In this document: in pieces, positions 17,574-23,898 of the stretch
Position numbering within the stretch: the stretch's first letter is position 1
Layout of the letters: each line of letters begins with the position of its first letter
Source: Tardiphaga alba
Lineage (GTDB): Bacteria; Pseudomonadota; Alphaproteobacteria; Rhizobiales; Xanthobacteraceae
Assembly: GCF_018279705.1 (NCBI RefSeq)
Contig: NZ_CP036498.1
Span: 310,001 to 374,000 of the forward strand
Length of the DNA stretch: 64,000 nt
Direction: 5' to 3'
Program-made: the position numbers and the translations under genes
Notes under the pieces: model-generated
What the model was told of the DNA's origin: nothing
What the model saw: only the letters and a program-made list of their open reading frames with translations
Database searches by the model: none

Positions 17574-20087
17574 TCATTCGGCCGCGTTACGATGTGCGGT
17601 TTGGTCCAAAGGGAATTCACAGCTCACCGTGGTGCCCTTTCCGACCGTCGAATCGATCCGCACCTTGCCGCCATGGAGTTCGACGAAGGAGCGCACCAGC
17701 GACAGGCCGAGACCGGCGCCGCGATGGCGCGAGCCGTTGGCATGGCTCTCGAACCAGTCGAACATCTTGTCCTGCATGTCCGGCGGAATGCCGGGGCCGC
17801 GATCGGTCACCGAGAAGATGATCATGTGTTCGGTGCGCGCCGCGCGCAGCGTCACAGCCGAATCATGCGGTGCGAAGCCAACTGCATTGGCGAGCAGATT
17901 GTACAGCACCTGCACGACGCGGCTTTCATCGCCGATGAAGCTGCCGATGTTGGGATCCGCATCGATCTGCAACGCGATGCGGTCGCGCACCAGGCGATCC
18001 TGCACGCCTTCGGCCGCGGCATCGATGGTCTTGCGGATATCGATCGGACCGAGATTGAGCGACATCGCGCCGGCATCGATGGTGGCGAGATCCAGGATAT
18101 TATTGATGATCGCCAGCAAGGCGCTGGTCGATGTCGTGATGTAATCTAAATACTCGGCCTGCTTGGAGAGCAGCGGGCCAGTGGTCGGGTCGCTGAGCAG
18201 ATGCGCGAAGCCGATGATGGTGGTGAGCGGGGAGCGCAGCTCGTAGGAGACGTGGTGGACGAAATCCACCTTCATCTGGTCGGCGGCTTCCAGCGCCTCG
18301 TTGCGCTCGCGCAGCGCCCGCTCGACGTTCTCGGCGTCCGAAATGTCCTGGAAGGTCAGCATGGTCGCGCCGTCGGGCAGCGGCATGCTCATGCAGGCGA
18401 GCACGCTGCCGTCCTTGCGCTCCATCTTCAACGGCACGGGTGCACGATTGTCGATGGAGGTAATGGCGCCGCGGATCGTCTGCCAGACGGCGGGATCGTC
18501 GAACAGCGGCCGGCACAGCGTCTCGACCATTTCGATATGGGGCTCTTGCTCCAGCGTCTCGTCCGACAGCCGCCACATCTTGGCGAAGGACGGGTTGAAC
18601 AGCTGGGCACGGCCATTGCTGCCGAACACCGCGACGGCTTCGGCAAGGTTGTCGAGCGTCTCGCGCTGAACGCGGATCAACCCATCGAAGCGCCGTGCAA
18701 GATCCAGCCGCTCGGTGACGTCGTCATAGAGATAGGTGACGCCGCCTTCGGGATTCGGCGTGGTGACGATGGAGAGCGCGCGGCCGTCTGGCAGATACCA
18801 GACATCCTTATGCGCCTCATTGGCGTGATAGGCCTCGTGCAGCTTCGTCTTCCAGGCGCGGAAATTCGGCTGTTCCGGCAGCTTGCGCGCCGCACGCAGG
18901 CGGTCCAGCACGCTGGAGTCGTCGGGATTGCTGTCCAGGAATGCGCGGTCGAGATCCCACAGGCGACGATAGGCGTCGTTGTAGAAGGCGAGCCGGCGCT
19001 GGCCGTCGAATACGGCGACGCCGGAGGAGAGCTGGTCCAGCGTGCGGCGATGCGCTTCCGCCATGCGCAGCAATGCGGCCTTAAGTGCAGCAGCCTCACT
19101 GGCATCGATGGCCATGCCGGCGCTGCCATTGCCGATGCGCGCGGCATGGACGTCAAAGATGCGCCGTTCGCCAGAGATCACCACGGGAACGCGGGCCGTG
19201 AAGGGCTGATTGTCGTTCAGCACGCGCGTCAGGCTGGCGCGATGATCGCTGTCGAGCAGTTCGAGATTGCGCGCCACGGCATCGGTCACGTCGCTGGCTT
19301 CGGTGGCGTGCACATAGGCGACATTGGCAAAGCTGAGCTTGCCGTCGGCATGCCGCGCCCAGATCGGGAATGGCGCGGCATTGGCGAAGCCGCGCAGCGT
19401 CTCGCTCTCCTCGCTGAGTTCCCGGTAGCGCAGCGTCATCTCGGCCAGCTCGCGGCGCAGTCCGCTGAGTTCGCGAATGCGCAGGATCGCCTGGCCACCG
19501 ATGGCGCGGCCCATCGCTTCGATGGCGCGGCCGGTGGAGGTGGTGAGATTGAGCACAAAACCTTCGCCGGCATCGAGCAGCGCATCGACGGCGTGGTCCA
19601 TCCGCAGCGCGGGTTCTGGCGGCAGCCATGTGCCGAAAGCGAGGATGCGTTGCGGCTGGTGGGTCTGTGGGTCCTGCGACATCATGATCGCGGTGTCGCC
19701 GGAAATATCGGGGCGCTTGTCGCCGGCCGCCCAGGAAACCAGCACCTGCGGTTCGGTGAACAGCAAGGCGCGGAAACGGTCCGCTTCGGTCTGCAAGGCA
19801 TGCAGTTCGTTGCGCAACTTGGTCTCGGTGCGTGCTGCGCGCTGGCGGTTGCGCATCAGCAGGATGGCGCAGACGACGGAGAAGCCGAGCACGGCGCCGC
19901 CGGTGGTGAGCGCGGCGATTTCCTGGCGGTCGAGATCGAGCAGGCCGGCAAGCGTCAGCGGCGAGTCGTCCGCCGCAAGCGCGCAGGAGGCGAGTGCGGT
20001 GGACGCACCAATGCCGACAAGCCCGTCACGCACCATGGCAGTGCATGCGAGCCAGGTCCGACGCATCACTGCGGTCACGCCTGACAT
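17574..20087 (-). CDS. divL: DivL-like PAS-domain histidine-kinase homologue with Tyr at the phosphorylation site
   Basis: An 837-residue protein with an N-terminal hydrophobic region (a second membrane segment at about residues 56-75), several PAS domains (about 115-590), a DHp helix and an ATPase domain. The H-box reads FVHHVSYELRSPLTTIIGF: Tyr615 replaces the conserved His. The ATP lid motifs are kept (NLLANAVGF, DRGPGIPPD, GAGLGLSLV). This is the hallmark of DivL, which in Caulobacter controls the kinase CckA, and hence CtrA, in response to DivK. Adjacency to tsaE matches my memory of divL loci elsewhere. The ATG at 20087 is used; one at 20066 is possible. Confidence 0.87.
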   Translation of the reverse strand: MSGVTAVMRRTWLACTAMVRDGLVGIGASTALASCALAADDSPLTLAGLLDLDRQEIAALTTGGAVLGFSVVCAILLMRNRQRAARTETKLRNELHALQTEADRFRALLFTEPQVLVSWAAGDKRPDISGDTAIMMSQDPQTHQPQRILAFGTWLPPEPALRMDHAVDALLDAGEGFVLNLTTSTGRAIEAMGRAIGGQAILRIRELSGLRRELAEMTLRYRELSEESETLRGFANAAPFPIWARHADGKLSFANVAYVHATEASDVTDAVARNLELLDSDHRASLTRVLNDNQPFTARVPVVISGERRIFDVHAARIGNGSAGMAIDASEAAALKAALLRMAEAHRRTLDQLSSGVAVFDGQRRLAFYNDAYRRLWDLDRAFLDSNPDDSSVLDRLRAARKLPEQPNFRAWKTKLHEAYHANEAHKDVWYLPDGRALSIVTTPNPEGGVTYLYDDVTERLDLARRFDGLIRVQRETLDNLAEAVAVFGSNGRAQLFNPSFAKMWRLSDETLEQEPHIEMVETLCRPLFDDPAVWQTIRGAITSIDNRAPVPLKMERKDGSVLACMSMPLPDGATMLTFQDISDAENVERALRERNEALEAADQMKVDFVHHVSYELRSPLTTIIGFAHLLSDPTTGPLLSKQAEYLDYITTSTSALLAIINNILDLATIDAGAMSLNLGPIDIRKTIDAAAEGVQDRLVRDRIALQIDADPNIGSFIGDESRVVQVLYNLLANAVGFAPHDSAVTLRAARTEHMIIFSVTDRGPGIPPDMQDKMFDWFESHANGSRHRGAGLGLSLVRSFVELHGGKVRIDSTVGKGTTVSCEFPLDQTAHRNAAE

Positions 20088-20276
20088 GAATTGCCCCAAA
20101 AAGCCGCACGGATTCTCAGGCGGCCCCACACCACCTCAGACGAATCGTTGGACAGTATCTGCTTCGGGAGTCGGCCGGTAAGAGTCCAGACCGTGAACGA
20201 TGACCGCGGCCTTAAAAAATGCCGCCGCGTTTGAATCGAATTGCGCAGAGTGTGACGAAAAGACTCGGTCTATTGC

Positions 20277-20378: not shown

Positions 20379-20837
20379 CTATCTTCCTGTCGATCCAAAC
20401 CCGCCACTGCCGCGTTCCGTTTCGCCGAGAGCTTGCACCAGCACGAGTTCCGCCTGGCTCACGGGCGCAATCACCATCTGCGCGATTCGCTCCCCGCGCT
20501 TGATCGTGAAGGCGGCGCTGCCGTGGTTGATCAGGATCACCGCGATCTCGCCGCGGTAATCCGCATCGATGGTGCCGGGTGAGTTCAGCACGGTAATGCC
20601 GTGCTTGGCGGCGAGGCCGGAGCGCGGGCGCACCTGCGCCTCATAACCGGGCGGCAGCGCGATGCTCAGTGCCGTCGGTACCATCGCGACCTTGCCGGGC
20701 TCCAGGATGACCGGTGCGGAATCCGGTACCGCTGCGAGAAGATCCATCCCCGCCGCATGCGCGGTCTGATAGGCCGGCAGCGGCAGGCCTGCGCCATGCG
20801 GCAATTGCTGGACTTCGACTTTGACAGTGCTGCTCAT
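20379..20837 (-). CDS. dut: Deoxyuridine 5'-triphosphate nucleotidohydrolase
   Basis: Hydrolyses dUTP to dUMP and pyrophosphate, keeping uracil out of DNA and feeding dTMP synthesis. All five trimeric dUTPase motifs are present in 152 residues: [48 protein letters not shown] and the C-terminal [10 protein letters not shown]. The ATG at 20837 overlaps the coaBC stop (ATGA); the longer frame to 20915 lies inside coaBC. The coaBC-dut pair is a familiar arrangement, also in enterics. Confidence 0.97.
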
Positions 20838-22276
20838 GATGTCTCTTTCGCGAGAGAGGAGGCGATGCGCGCGACCAGCGTCACGGCAACGTCCTCCTTG
20901 CTCATTGGCGCCCATGAATCAACGGCGATCTCGCCGCTCTCCTTGTCGCGCGTGAGCAAATTCACAGTGTTGCTGTCGCCGCCCATGATGCCGGTGGCTG
21001 GCGAGACGTCATTGGCGACGATCCAGTCGCAGCCCTTGCGCTTTATCTTGGCGGTCGCGTTGTCGATCAGATGCTCGGTCTCGGCGGCGAAGCCGATCAC
21101 CAGCGGCGGGCGGTTCGTTCCGCGCTTCGAGATGGTCGCGAGAATGTCGGGATTTTCGGTGAGCTGCAGCGGCGGCATCGCTTCGCCGGCCTTCTTCTTG
21201 ATCTTCTGCGCGCCCTCGCTGACGACGCGCCAGTCGGCGACCGCTGCCGCGAAGATCGCGATGTCGACCGGAAGTGCTGCTTCCACGGCGCTCAGCATGT
21301 CGCGCGCGGATTCCACATGCTTCACGTCCACGCCGCGGGGCTCATCAAGCTCCACCGGGCCGGACACCAGAATCACCTCAGCGCCCGCGGACCGCGCGGC
21401 ATCGGCAATCGCAAAGCCCTGCTTGCCCGAGGAGCGATTGGCGATATAGCGCACGGGATCGATGGGCTCATGCGTTGGCCCCGCGGTAATCAGGATGCGC
21501 TTGCCTTTCAGGGGCTGCGGACGCTGCGGCCGCAGCAGTGCATTCGCGGCTTCCGCAATCTCCGTCGGCTCCGCCATGCGGCCGGTGCCGGCTTCATTGC
21601 GCTCGGCCATCTCGCCGGCATTGGGCCCGATCATGCGGATGCCATCGCGCTGCAGCTGCGCGACATTGCGCTTTGTTGCGGCATTGCCCCACATCAGCGG
21701 GTTCATCGCCGGTGCGATCAGGATCGGTTTGTTGGAGGCGAGAAGGATGGCGGATGCCAGGTCATCCGCATGCCCGTTTGCCATCTTGGCCATCAGGTCC
21801 GCCGTCGCCGGCGCCACAACGATCAGGTCGCATTCGCGCGCCAGGCGGATATGCCCGGCATCGAACTCGCTCTGGGGGTCGAACAGGTCGGTATAGGCGC
21901 GCTCATTGGAGAGGGCGCTTGCCGCCAGTGCGGTAACGAATTTCTGCGCGGCCTGGGTGAGGACGACCCGAACGTGAATGCCGCGCTCCTTGATCCGGCG
22001 GATCAGGTCGAGCGACTTGTACGCCGCGATGCCGCCGCCGATGATCAGCGTGACCTTGGGCTGGGTGCCGGCCTGCGGCGGTGCCGTGTCGCGCGACGTC
22101 GGGGCGATCGGCGCGGTGTCCGCGGGCAGGCCGGCGGCCCCGGCGCGGCCACCTTGTGCCGCCTCACGCAGGATGACCCGGACTTCGTCCTCCACGGACC
22201 GCCCGTTGCGTGCGGCCCGGAGCCGGATGTCGTCCCGGATCGCGTCGTCGAGATTGCGAATGGAGAGATTGGCCAT
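20834..22276 (-). CDS. coaBC: CoaBC (phosphopantothenoylcysteine synthetase/decarboxylase) with N-terminal FitA-like RHH domain
   Basis: A 480-residue coenzyme A enzyme. CoaC (about 75-250) has the flavin motif [12 protein letters not shown] and the PxMNxxMW motif [11 protein letters not shown]. CoaB (about 262-480) has [24 protein letters not shown] and the dimer and CTP-binding KIKRK region. Unusually, residues 1-40 form a ribbon-helix-helix domain ([29 protein letters not shown]) very like antitoxin FitA, joined by an Ala/Pro linker (41-74). No ATG or GTG lies between the domains in frame, so this is one protein. E. coli Cys158 of CoaC appears missing ([12 protein letters not shown]). The ATG at 22276 follows GAGG. 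It overlaps dut. Confidence 0.93.
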
Positions 22277-22302
22277 GACCGCCTCGCATGATTTGACAGC
22301 AA

Positions 22303-22323
22303 TGCTAGCACAATATGCTAGCG
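22303..22323. promoter_or_regulatory. Candidate RHH operator: two TGCTAGC(A/G) boxes
   Basis: TGCTAGCA (22303-22310) and TGCTAGCG (22316-22323) are separated by CAATA. Each box is (nearly) its own reverse complement, so the pair is both a direct and an inverted repeat. They lie 27-47 bases upstream of the coaBC start, inside the 53-base gap after ubiB. From memory, the FitAB operator has half-sites close to TGCTATCA/TGATAGCA. The match to the RHH domain of CoaBC suggests autoregulation. This is inference; no binding is shown. Confidence 0.55.
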
Positions 22324-22329
22324 GTGCAA

Positions 22330-23898
22330 TCAGCGGACAGTGAGCAGGATCCCGATAAAGGTCAGCGCGATCACCCAGATGCCGATGGTTCGCCACCTGG
22401 TCTGCTTGGCCCGGATCCGGCCAATGGCGGCAATGGTCTCGTCGTCGAGCCGGACGCCATTGCGCGTCATGGTCTCGAGCTGCTCCAGCACCGTCATCGC
22501 GCGCGTCGCCAGCGCCGGCAATCCGGAGGCTGCCTTACCGAGTTCACCGGCCCCCGCCAGCGCGCCCTGGATCTTGCCGAGCGGCCCGAGATTGCGCTCG
22601 ATCCACTCGCGGACGACGGGATCGGCCACTTTCCAGATATCCAGTTTCGGATCGAAAGTGCGGGCGACGCCTTCGACCACCACCATGGTCTTCTGCAGCA
22701 GGATCAATTCCGGTCGCGTCTGCATGTCGAACAGGCCGGTGATTTCCAGCAGCAAGGTCAACAGCCTGGCCATGGAGATTTCTTCGGCCGTGCGGTTATG
22801 GATCGGCTCGCCGATCGCCCGGATCGCCTGCGCGAAATTCTCCACCGAGTGATGCGCCGGCACATAGCCGGCCTCGAAATGCACTTCGGCCACGCGACGA
22901 TAATTGCGGGTGATGAAGCCGAGCAGGATCTCGGCCAGAAATCTTCGCTCCTTCAGGCCGAGCCGGCCCATGATGCCGAAATCCACCGCAACAAGGCGGC
23001 CGTCATTACCGAGAAACAGGTTTCCCGGATGCATGTCGGCATGGAAGAAGCCGTCGCGCAACGCGTGGCGCAGGAAGCTCTGGATCACCTTGCGGCCGAG
23101 ATCGGGCAGATCGACATGCGATTCCGCCAGGCGCTTGTGATCGTTCAGCGCGATGCCGTCGATCCACTCCATCGTCAGCACATTGTGCGACGTGCGGTCC
23201 CAGTCGACTTCGGGGACGCGGAAATCCGGATCGTTCTTCGTGTTCTCCGCCATCTCCGAGAGTGCGGCGGCTTCCAGCCGCAAATCCATCTCCATCGCGA
23301 CCGAGCGCGACATCACGGTGATGATTTCGATCAGGCGCAGACGGCGCGCTTCGGCGGAATACTGCTCGGCATTGCGCGCGACGAAGAAGAAATCGCCGAG
23401 GTCGCGGCGGAATTGCGCGGACACATTCGGGCGCAGTACCTTCACGGCTACGGTCTTGCGTACGCCGTCTTTCACGATCTCCGCGCGATGCACCTGCGCG
23501 ATCGAGGCTGCAGCCACCGGTGGCGAGAAGCTCGCATAGAGCTGCGCCATCGGCCGTTCCAGCGAAGCCGCCACCACATGCTCGGCTTCGGTATTGGAGA
23601 AGGGCGGCAGGCGGTCCTGCAGGTTTTCGAGGTCGCGCGCCATGGCGACGCCGACCACGTCGGGCCGTGTCGCCAGAAATTGGCCGAGCTTCAAATAAGC
23701 CGGCCCCAGGCGCGTCAGCGCGCGGGAGAGCTTTGGTCCGGTCTGCGCATTCTTGCGTTCGATCAGCCGCGCGATTTTCACCGCCAGCAGCGCCGGCGGC
23801 GGTATCAGTGCGGGATCGACGGCGCCGAACACGCCTTCGCGCGCAAAGACGATGCCGGCGCGGGCGAGGCGCGTGATATGCGAGAGAGCAGAGATCAC
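22330..23898 (-). CDS. ubiB: UbiB, atypical kinase/ATPase of ubiquinone biosynthesis
   Basis: A 522-residue member of the UbiB/ADCK family, needed for coenzyme Q synthesis and possibly for lipid handling at the membrane. The signature KxGQ motif is in [18 protein letters not shown]. The A-rich loop replacing the kinase P-loop is [11 protein letters not shown]. The catalytic region is [15 protein letters not shown] and [11 protein letters not shown]. Two C-terminal hydrophobic stretches end in [14 protein letters not shown], a membrane anchor. The GTG start at 23898 overlaps the ubiE stop (GTGA). The gene ends 53 bases before coaBC. Confidence 0.96.

Follow-up and report, generated by a model that had tools for sequence, protein, structure and literature searches.

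A FitA-like DNA-binding domain fused to CoaBC and its candidate operator suggest an autorepressor built into an enzyme of coenzyme A biosynthesis

Why would an enzyme of coenzyme A (CoA) biosynthesis begin with the DNA-binding domain of an antitoxin? The question is raised by coaBC of Tardiphaga alba, which lies on the minus strand of a 64,000-nucleotide stretch of DNA (contig NZ_CP036498.1, positions 310,001 to 374,000; hereafter the window, to which all coordinates refer). CoaBC is an essential enzyme and a drug target, and to our knowledge little is known of the transcriptional control of CoA biosynthesis in proteobacteria. In this work, we compared the locus with those of related genomes and found a FitA-like ribbon-helix-helix (RHH) domain at the start of CoaBC, conserved across several genera, together with arrays of short boxes ahead of the fused genes and with toxin–antitoxin modules at the same place in unfused relatives. 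We consider it likely that CoaBC of this lineage combines catalysis with autorepression, through a captured FitA-type RHH domain that uses the boxes as its operator.

An antitoxin-type domain fused to CoaBC

The gene and its domains are as follows.

20834..22276, minus strand: coaBC, 480 residues (FitA-like RHH, linker, CoaC, CoaB), with its ATG at 22276
22157..22273, minus strand: FitA-like ribbon-helix-helix domain, residues 2-40; Pfam PF22513 match, model best matched to 2bsq
22058..22156, minus strand: variable linker, residues 41-73; low identity, disordered in the model
21548..22057, minus strand: CoaC flavoprotein domain (phosphopantothenoylcysteine decarboxylase), residues 74-243; Pfam Flavoprotein
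20957..21511, minus strand: CoaB domain (phosphopantothenate-cysteine ligase), residues 256-440; Pfam DFP

A preliminary description of this DNA, made without database searches, had read residues 1-40 as a FitA-like RHH domain. The Pfam family FitA-like_RHH (PF22513) indeed matches residues 2-40 over all 39 model positions (E 1.5e-14; 54.1 bits, cut-off 27), and the closest solved relatives of residues 1-79 are the FitA chains 2h1o and 2bsq (E 7e-4), found at E 7e-9 when residues 1-50 are searched as an alignment. The AlphaFold model of residues 1-50 has as its top match FitAB bound to DNA (2bsq), with a root-mean-square deviation of 1.3, 44% identity and, for so short a chain, a Foldseek E value of 0.036. 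The remainder scores 389.8 bits against the NCBIfam equivalog TIGR00521 for coaBC (cut-off 219.7), with both enzyme domains complete. Domain matches and the full-length model thus place an enzyme and a DNA-binding domain in one chain, joined by a linker that is disordered in the model (pLDDT, the predicted local confidence score, below 50 at residues 42-70). Thirteen solved sequences match at E 1e-10, and none of them spans the first 70 residues.

The same description had stated that no alternative start separates the RHH domain from CoaC. This agrees with our scan of 90 codons downstream of the ATG, in which the single in-frame start is a GTG at codon 28, within the RHH domain; codons 29-90 contain no in-frame ATG, GTG or TTG, and therefore no alternative start lies between the two domains.

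Averaged over all pairs among 79 fused proteins, identity amounts to 0.68 in the RHH domain, 0.14 in the linker (residues 41-71; median linker length 33 residues), 0.75 in CoaC and 0.71 in CoaB. The RHH domain is therefore conserved almost as well as the enzyme, unlike the linker, a pattern that indicates selection on the domain. R7 is invariant in all 79 proteins, and 78 of them have T or S at position 5. FitA has a valine at a DNA-facing strand position where most RHH proteins are hydrophilic (excerpt of the AmrZ paper, PMC3325190), and position 5 would correspond to it, so that the presumed DNA-contact residues, placed from that passage on FitA, appear to be kept among orthologues. Two fused genomes, one with masked bases (G015) and one with a broken frame (G262), were left out of the identity, half-site, gap-octamer and generic-box counts.

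The fusion is widespread among relatives. When 512 loci were ranked by the RHH domain alone, the best 80 comprised 76 fusions recognized by script, among them L190 with its broken frame, one fusion cut by a contig end (L178) and three stand-alone antitoxins; the fused genes of these 80 come from, among others, Tardiphaga, Bradyrhizobium, Nitrobacter, Rhodopseudomonas, Afipia and Pseudolabrys. Within the source genus (18 genomes, that of the window included), the proteins align from the RHH domain, apart from those truncated or masked at that point (G008, G015). In a survey of 248 genomes of the family, the matches listed start at residue 1-3, with G015, G259 and G262 as the exceptions, and a further search of 38 family genomes, mostly ones outside the listed matches, revealed many unfused genera. 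In the order (297 genomes), the matches listed from outside the family that start at residue 1 are those of G499 (family f16) and of G469, G350, G450 and G380 (f24), and in the class (240 genomes) none of the matches listed from outside the order starts at residue 1.

Two loci deserve separate mention. In an Afipia metagenome-assembled genome (G262; L105/L190), a stop after 53 codons breaks a fused frame in which the RHH domain, boxes and CoaBC are otherwise present, perhaps owing to an assembly error or a recent split. A contig labelled Deltaproteobacteria (L228) encodes a 482-residue RHH-CoaBC fusion and is possibly a misbinned or mislabelled contig of a metagenome-assembled genome.

Box arrays accompany the fusion

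Upstream of coaBC lies a gap of 53 bases (22277-22329), in which the preliminary description had noticed two palindromic boxes 5 bases apart. Both are present, and two further boxes had been missed.

22325..22332, minus strand: box 1, TGATTGCA; its TGA is the ubiB stop codon
22316..22323, minus strand: box 2, CGCTAGCA; read from the sequence, one of the two noticed earlier
22303..22310, minus strand: box 3, TGCTAGCA; read from the sequence, the other one noticed earlier
22294..22301, minus strand: box 4, TGCTGTCA; a variant, read from the sequence
22302..22329, minus strand: promoter candidate TTGCAC-N16-TAGCAT, lying within the boxes; weak, a consensus match only
22330..23898, minus strand: ubiB, upstream neighbour, by gene order and domain matches
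20379..20840, minus strand: dut (dUTP diphosphatase), overlapping the end of coaBC, by domain matches

The gene order is ubiE-ubiB-coaBC-dut, and because ubiE and ubiB (23895-23898) as well as coaBC and dut (20834-20840) overlap, the ubiB-coaBC gap is the sole one among these four genes, again as first described. The gap and the end of ubiB hold four TGNNNNCA-like boxes that start at relative positions 0, 9, 22 and 31 and lie 18-56 bp upstream of the start codon. The spacings of 9, 22 and 31 are among the commonest in the family: in the 79 fused genomes, box starts are most often 9 bp apart (95 pairs), followed by 22 (36), 31 (21), 18 (21), 13 (17) and 23 (13). The arrays are thus laid out as tandem pairs with a 9-bp period, plus pairs set 13 apart; the letters of the boxes vary, and the TG..CA frame and the 9-bp spacing recur.

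The presence of boxes follows the fusion closely. At least one of six exact octamers occurs in the gap of 74 of the 79 fused genomes and in none of 55 unfused genomes without a toxin–antitoxin module (Fisher p 3e-32, ignoring relatedness), as well as in 3 of 6 genomes that hold such a module or scraps of one. Counted by genus-level group, with several genera of other families pooled under two labels, the figures are 28/30 fused against 0/30 unfused. For these gap counts, 300 bp upstream were used where ubiB is not adjacent (8/79 fused, 17/55 unfused), and G095, whose fused gene is broken up by contig ends, was taken out of the unfused set, leaving the 55; the same genome was counted as unfused in the 110-bp, 320-bp and independent-pair counts given below. 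A generic TGNNNNCA-N-TGNNNNCA array is found within 320 bp in 73/79 fused genomes (0.2 expected by shuffling) and in 0/55 unfused ones, G095 being among these 55. Within 110 bp, exact TGATTGCA or TGCAATCA occurs in 65/79 fused and 1/61 unfused genomes, a set of 61 that includes the misfiled G095 and the six genomes with modules or scraps; the lone unfused genome must be G181, a holder of module scraps.

The half-site that the preliminary description had given for FitA, TGCTATCA/TGATAGCA, occurs in its exact form within 110 bp in 15/79 fused and 0/61 unfused genomes. With one mismatch allowed, it is found in 76/79 and 9/61, against 5.5 and 2.2 given by shuffling.

The five fused genomes without an exact gap octamer (G004, G024, G020, G450 and G127) have variants such as TGATGGCATTGCCATCA, read by eye. 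In three loci, L122 (G127), L125 (G083) and L133 (G077), repeat-like inserts separate the boxes from the coaBC start, so that no near match falls within 110 bp; the boxes stand next to ubiB, exact in two of the genomes and variant in G127.

The boxes may also coincide with promoter sequence. In 70/79 fused genomes, the promoter-like site that scores best shares bases with a box (for example, TTGATT-N16-TATAAT in G155), which is weak evidence by itself, and we do not rely on these promoter statistics in the main argument. The genus mate G005 has the same layout as the window (TTGCAA-N16-TAGCAT), and the scripted choice in the window is a different, equally weak candidate.

Within the 5.86-Mb source genome, a loose form of the double box, TGMWDKCA-N-TGMWDKCA, occurs three times, and the site at coaBC is the only one of the three holding an exact member of the six octamers, which indicates that it is no chance match. 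It fails the strict form, TGMWWKCA-N-TGMWWKCA (no match in the source genome), because box 4 is a variant. The RHH domain of CoaBC is likewise the only PF22513 match detected in that genome (150 of 161 first-look candidates scored). A single detected FitA-like domain and the single loose double-box match with an exact octamer thus coincide at coaBC, and no other FitA-like protein was found there that might use the site.

The box pattern at stand-alone FitA-like genes

A blind search with the strict double-box pattern was carried out across 61 family genomes, nearby sites being merged. It was present in 32 of them, at 40 merged sites, 25 of which lie within 500 bp of coaBC: 24 at fused genes and one ahead of an antitoxin within the gap. 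Ten of the other 15 sit 10-39 bp upstream of a stand-alone FitA-like RHH match, as detected with a profile built from sequences gathered in this analysis. The reversed pattern, used as a control on the same genomes, gave one site each in three genomes. A pattern taken from the coaBC gap therefore finds other FitA-like antitoxin genes, which marks it as a putative operator of this domain family. In a class-wide sample of stand-alone FitA-like genes, an exact box precedes 9 of 15 and a double box 6 of 15; of the 24 loci from outside the window, 9 were unreadable by script, and the 15 include one place twice. The blind evidence consists of the strict-pattern search and this class sample.

One form of the pattern, TGATATCA-N-TGATATCA, turns up repeatedly in several genera, 10-19 bp upstream of stand-alone FitA-like RHH matches (L260, L263, L266, L271, L272 and L273). 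The letters of the boxes may track the RHH sequence, as a possible specificity code.

Toxin–antitoxin modules in the ubiB-coaBC gap

Where could the domain have come from? In an unfused genome of the same family (G118), the gap holds an operator, a 93-residue FitA-like antitoxin with its tail and a 145-residue PIN toxin, followed by coaBC. Complete fitAB modules of different sequence occupy the gap in two further unfused genomes, G084 of the same family and G487 of family f24, and in G026 and G089 the antitoxin is kept in the gap with most of the toxin deleted. Exact octamers accompany the in-gap antitoxins of G118 and G089, and the operator and RHH start of both align with those of fused genomes of genus g3 (row G092 excluded). 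In the tree of CoaBC cores, G089 and G181 share a starred clade with four fused genomes. A search with PADLOC returned no match for CoaBC or for the G118 toxin.

Fused CoaBCs do not form one clade. This grouping was rejected by the approximately unbiased (AU) test on a quick tree (LG+G4) both overall (p 3.6e-49) and within family f1 (p 0.001); the fused or unfused state requires 11 changes on 93 rows, and the fusions of f24 and f16 group with their own families in the core tree. The fusions therefore arose, or were lost, several times, with at least three origins as the plain reading of where the families place them; transfer of the 5' part may be an alternative source of scattered fusions. 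The best reading of these comparisons is that CoaBC has repeatedly captured antitoxin DNA-binding domains as putative built-in autorepressors.

Other insertions have been seen at this place. Three unfused loci (L034 and L061 and L089, genera g19 and g7) have a long extra coding-looking stretch in the gap, perhaps a GNAT-like acetyltransferase as judged by eye from the DNA; the gap thus accepts insertions in several lineages.

A putative autorepressor and its alternatives

RHH domains bind DNA as dimers. With such a domain fused to the enzyme and antitoxin-type boxes ahead of its own gene, the enzyme very probably turns that gene down. The preliminary description had already proposed CoaBC as its own repressor; binding of RHH-CoaBC to the boxes is, judged from sequence comparison, most likely, and to that proposal we add the toxin–antitoxin origin, the four-box layout and fusions in three families. 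Two outcomes that the description had named as refuting, unconserved DNA-contact residues and boxes absent from genomes with the fusion, were both looked for and not found. We propose that the N-terminal domain descends from a FitA-type antitoxin and that, once paired, RHH domains would occupy the array of TGNNNNCA boxes (8 bp each, set at 9 bp) in the ubiB-coaBC gap. Bound boxes would cover the coaBC-dut promoter, so that transcription would drop as CoaBC accumulates; since dut overlaps the end of coaBC, it is probably under the same control, and autorepression would reach it as well. The CoaBC proteins of Mycobacterium smegmatis and M. tuberculosis are dodecamers (PMC7794376, excerpt). If the core assembles likewise, as we expect from family membership, which also predicts enzyme activity, its twelve RHH domains, tethered by flexible linkers, would form six dimers, and one particle may grip two to four boxes by avidity; with several dimers holding adjacent boxes, binding would rise steeply with enzyme concentration.

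The most likely source of the domain would be a fitAB module once lodged between ubiB and coaBC, of which the toxin and the toxin-binding tail of the antitoxin would have been lost, more than once, and the DNA-binding part and operator retained. A broader proposal, which we offer tentatively and do not favour, is that the gap is a settling place of fitAB modules and that independent takeovers in at least three families have each produced a homeostatic autorepressor that senses the CoA pathway.

Several results weigh against the autorepressor reading. The octamers were taken from the fused genomes before counting, and the half-site, gap-octamer and generic-box counts are therefore not blind. 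Only six independent fused–unfused pairs stand on well supported branches, too few for significance: 4.4 point in the same direction and none in the opposite one (median p 0.125). Promoter-like scores are only slightly higher in fused than in unfused genomes, which leaves the overlap with boxes weak. Of the off-site double boxes in the blind search, the remaining 5 of 15 have no FitA-like RHH match nearby, and the exact box is missing at 6 of the 15 stand-alone genes in the class sample. No exact octamer is present in the gaps of G026, G084 and G487, three of the five genomes with an antitoxin there, although that of G487 has the variant TGACTGCATTGCAGTCA. Further, identity does not clearly set the RHH domains of in-gap modules nearer to fused ones than to stand-alone ones elsewhere (0.75 against 0.72 for G118); because these identities fail to separate the groups, we infer the deletion route from position. 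Linkers searched for remnants of a toxin C-terminus or an antitoxin tail gave 3/79 and 5/79 at p 0.05. These numbers are close to chance, and the idea of a linker fossil was dropped.

Among other explanations, the one that survives best is a metabolic trigger enzyme, put forward in the preliminary description on the model of PutA and BirA, in which, in addition to autorepression, occupancy of the CoaB or CoaC sites by CoA thioesters, CTP or phosphopantothenate alters the oligomer or the pairing of RHH domains and hence the affinity for DNA. The domain layout resembles that of PutA-type enzymes. In M. tuberculosis, CoA and acyl-CoAs inhibit CoaB in competition with CTP and phosphopantothenate (PMC7794376, excerpt), which points to a possible sensor site in the enzyme family. 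With a linker that is long, variable and disordered, however, simple avidity is more probable than direct conformational coupling, and we regard such a switch as possible but rather doubtful.

It is unlikely that the RHH domain binds the boxes as an activator or architectural protein rather than as a repressor. Autorepression of the operon is common among type II antitoxins, and the boxes of the window, close to the start codon and overlapping promoter-like sequence as in most fused genomes (a weak overlap), stand in the usual place of a repressor, although certain RHH proteins, such as AmrZ, both activate and repress (PMC3325190, excerpt).

That domain and boxes are functionless leftovers of an old module would fit the modules and decay products found in the same gap, but relics would hardly show an RHH domain conserved nearly like the enzyme beside a variable linker, boxes that are kept in almost all fused genomes and absent where there is neither fusion nor module, or a frame and spacing that recur despite varying letters; we consider this very improbable. 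Less probable still is an RHH domain that continues to act as an antitoxin, restraining a PIN toxin elsewhere in the cell. Membership in the FitA-like family is in its favour; against it, the antitoxin tail motif was found in 0/79 linkers of fused proteins, and dut, not a cognate PIN toxin gene, directly follows coaBC, PIN genes elsewhere in the genome lying outside the search. An annotation artefact, with the true start at CoaC and the RHH frame a chance frame or a separate leader, is barely credible: an in-frame ATG, GTG or TTG occurs in the linker of 55/79 fused genes, but there is none in the other 24, the window included, and the RHH frame is conserved at the protein level.

Taken as an autorepressor, CoaBC appears to be an enzyme that is itself the regulator, in a large bacterial group with soil, nodulating and phototrophic members. 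It would also be an unusually readable case of a selfish toxin–antitoxin module turned to housekeeping regulation, and as intact, decaying and fused states coexist at one locus in related genomes, the steps of the takeover are testable.

Downstream of dut

Beyond dut, positions 17574-20129 on the minus strand encode an 851-residue PAS/HisKA/HATPase protein whose H-box reads VSYELRSPL, with a tyrosine in place of the expected phosphoacceptor histidine. No NCBIfam model scores above its cut-off among the best 25; presumably, the protein resembles a DivL orthologue.

Comparison with known systems

In the open-licence literature of PMC, no paper was found that joins CoaBC with ribbon-helix-helix, and the portions of texts retrieved from it contain nothing on a DNA-binding or antitoxin domain on CoaBC. 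Neither pantothen nor Dfp nor FitA appears in the main text of the large toxin–antitoxin survey by Makarova et al. 2009 (PMC2701414), and coaBC, dfp and ubiB are all absent from that of a paper on Bradyrhizobium start sites (PMC4842269).

FitA of Neisseria gonorrhoeae (FitAB; 2bsq, 2h1o) is the closest solved relative of the RHH domain by sequence and fold, and in both systems putative operator boxes stand ahead of the protein's own gene; FitA operator half-sites are also 8 bp long (PMC6118392, excerpt). Unlike FitA, the domain has neither a toxin nor a recognizable toxin-binding tail and is fused to a CoA biosynthetic enzyme, and in place of the single inverted repeat of FitA, the window has four boxes in 9-bp pairs. 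The enzyme itself resembles CoaBC (Dfp) of M. smegmatis (6tgv), with CoaC and CoaB aligned over query residues 73-443, and differs in the RHH domain in front, which is absent from the known structure.

MetJ likewise reads tandem 8-bp met boxes with RHH dimers, a likeness that suggests cooperative binding to the array; the 9-bp period and the TGNNNNCA boxes differ, and MetJ is not an enzyme. With PutA and other trigger enzymes, CoaBC shares an RHH domain ahead of a metabolic enzyme and, putatively, an operator before its own gene or operon. The RHH domain of PutA is distant, however (2jxg at rank 34), and the CoaBC pathway is a different one, essential and biosynthetic; a redox or ligand switch in CoaBC would be hypothetical. 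Self-repressing enzymes are a known kind, of which PutA is an example, and domain databases may list the present architecture; this enzyme, the source of its domain and the repeated takeover look new.

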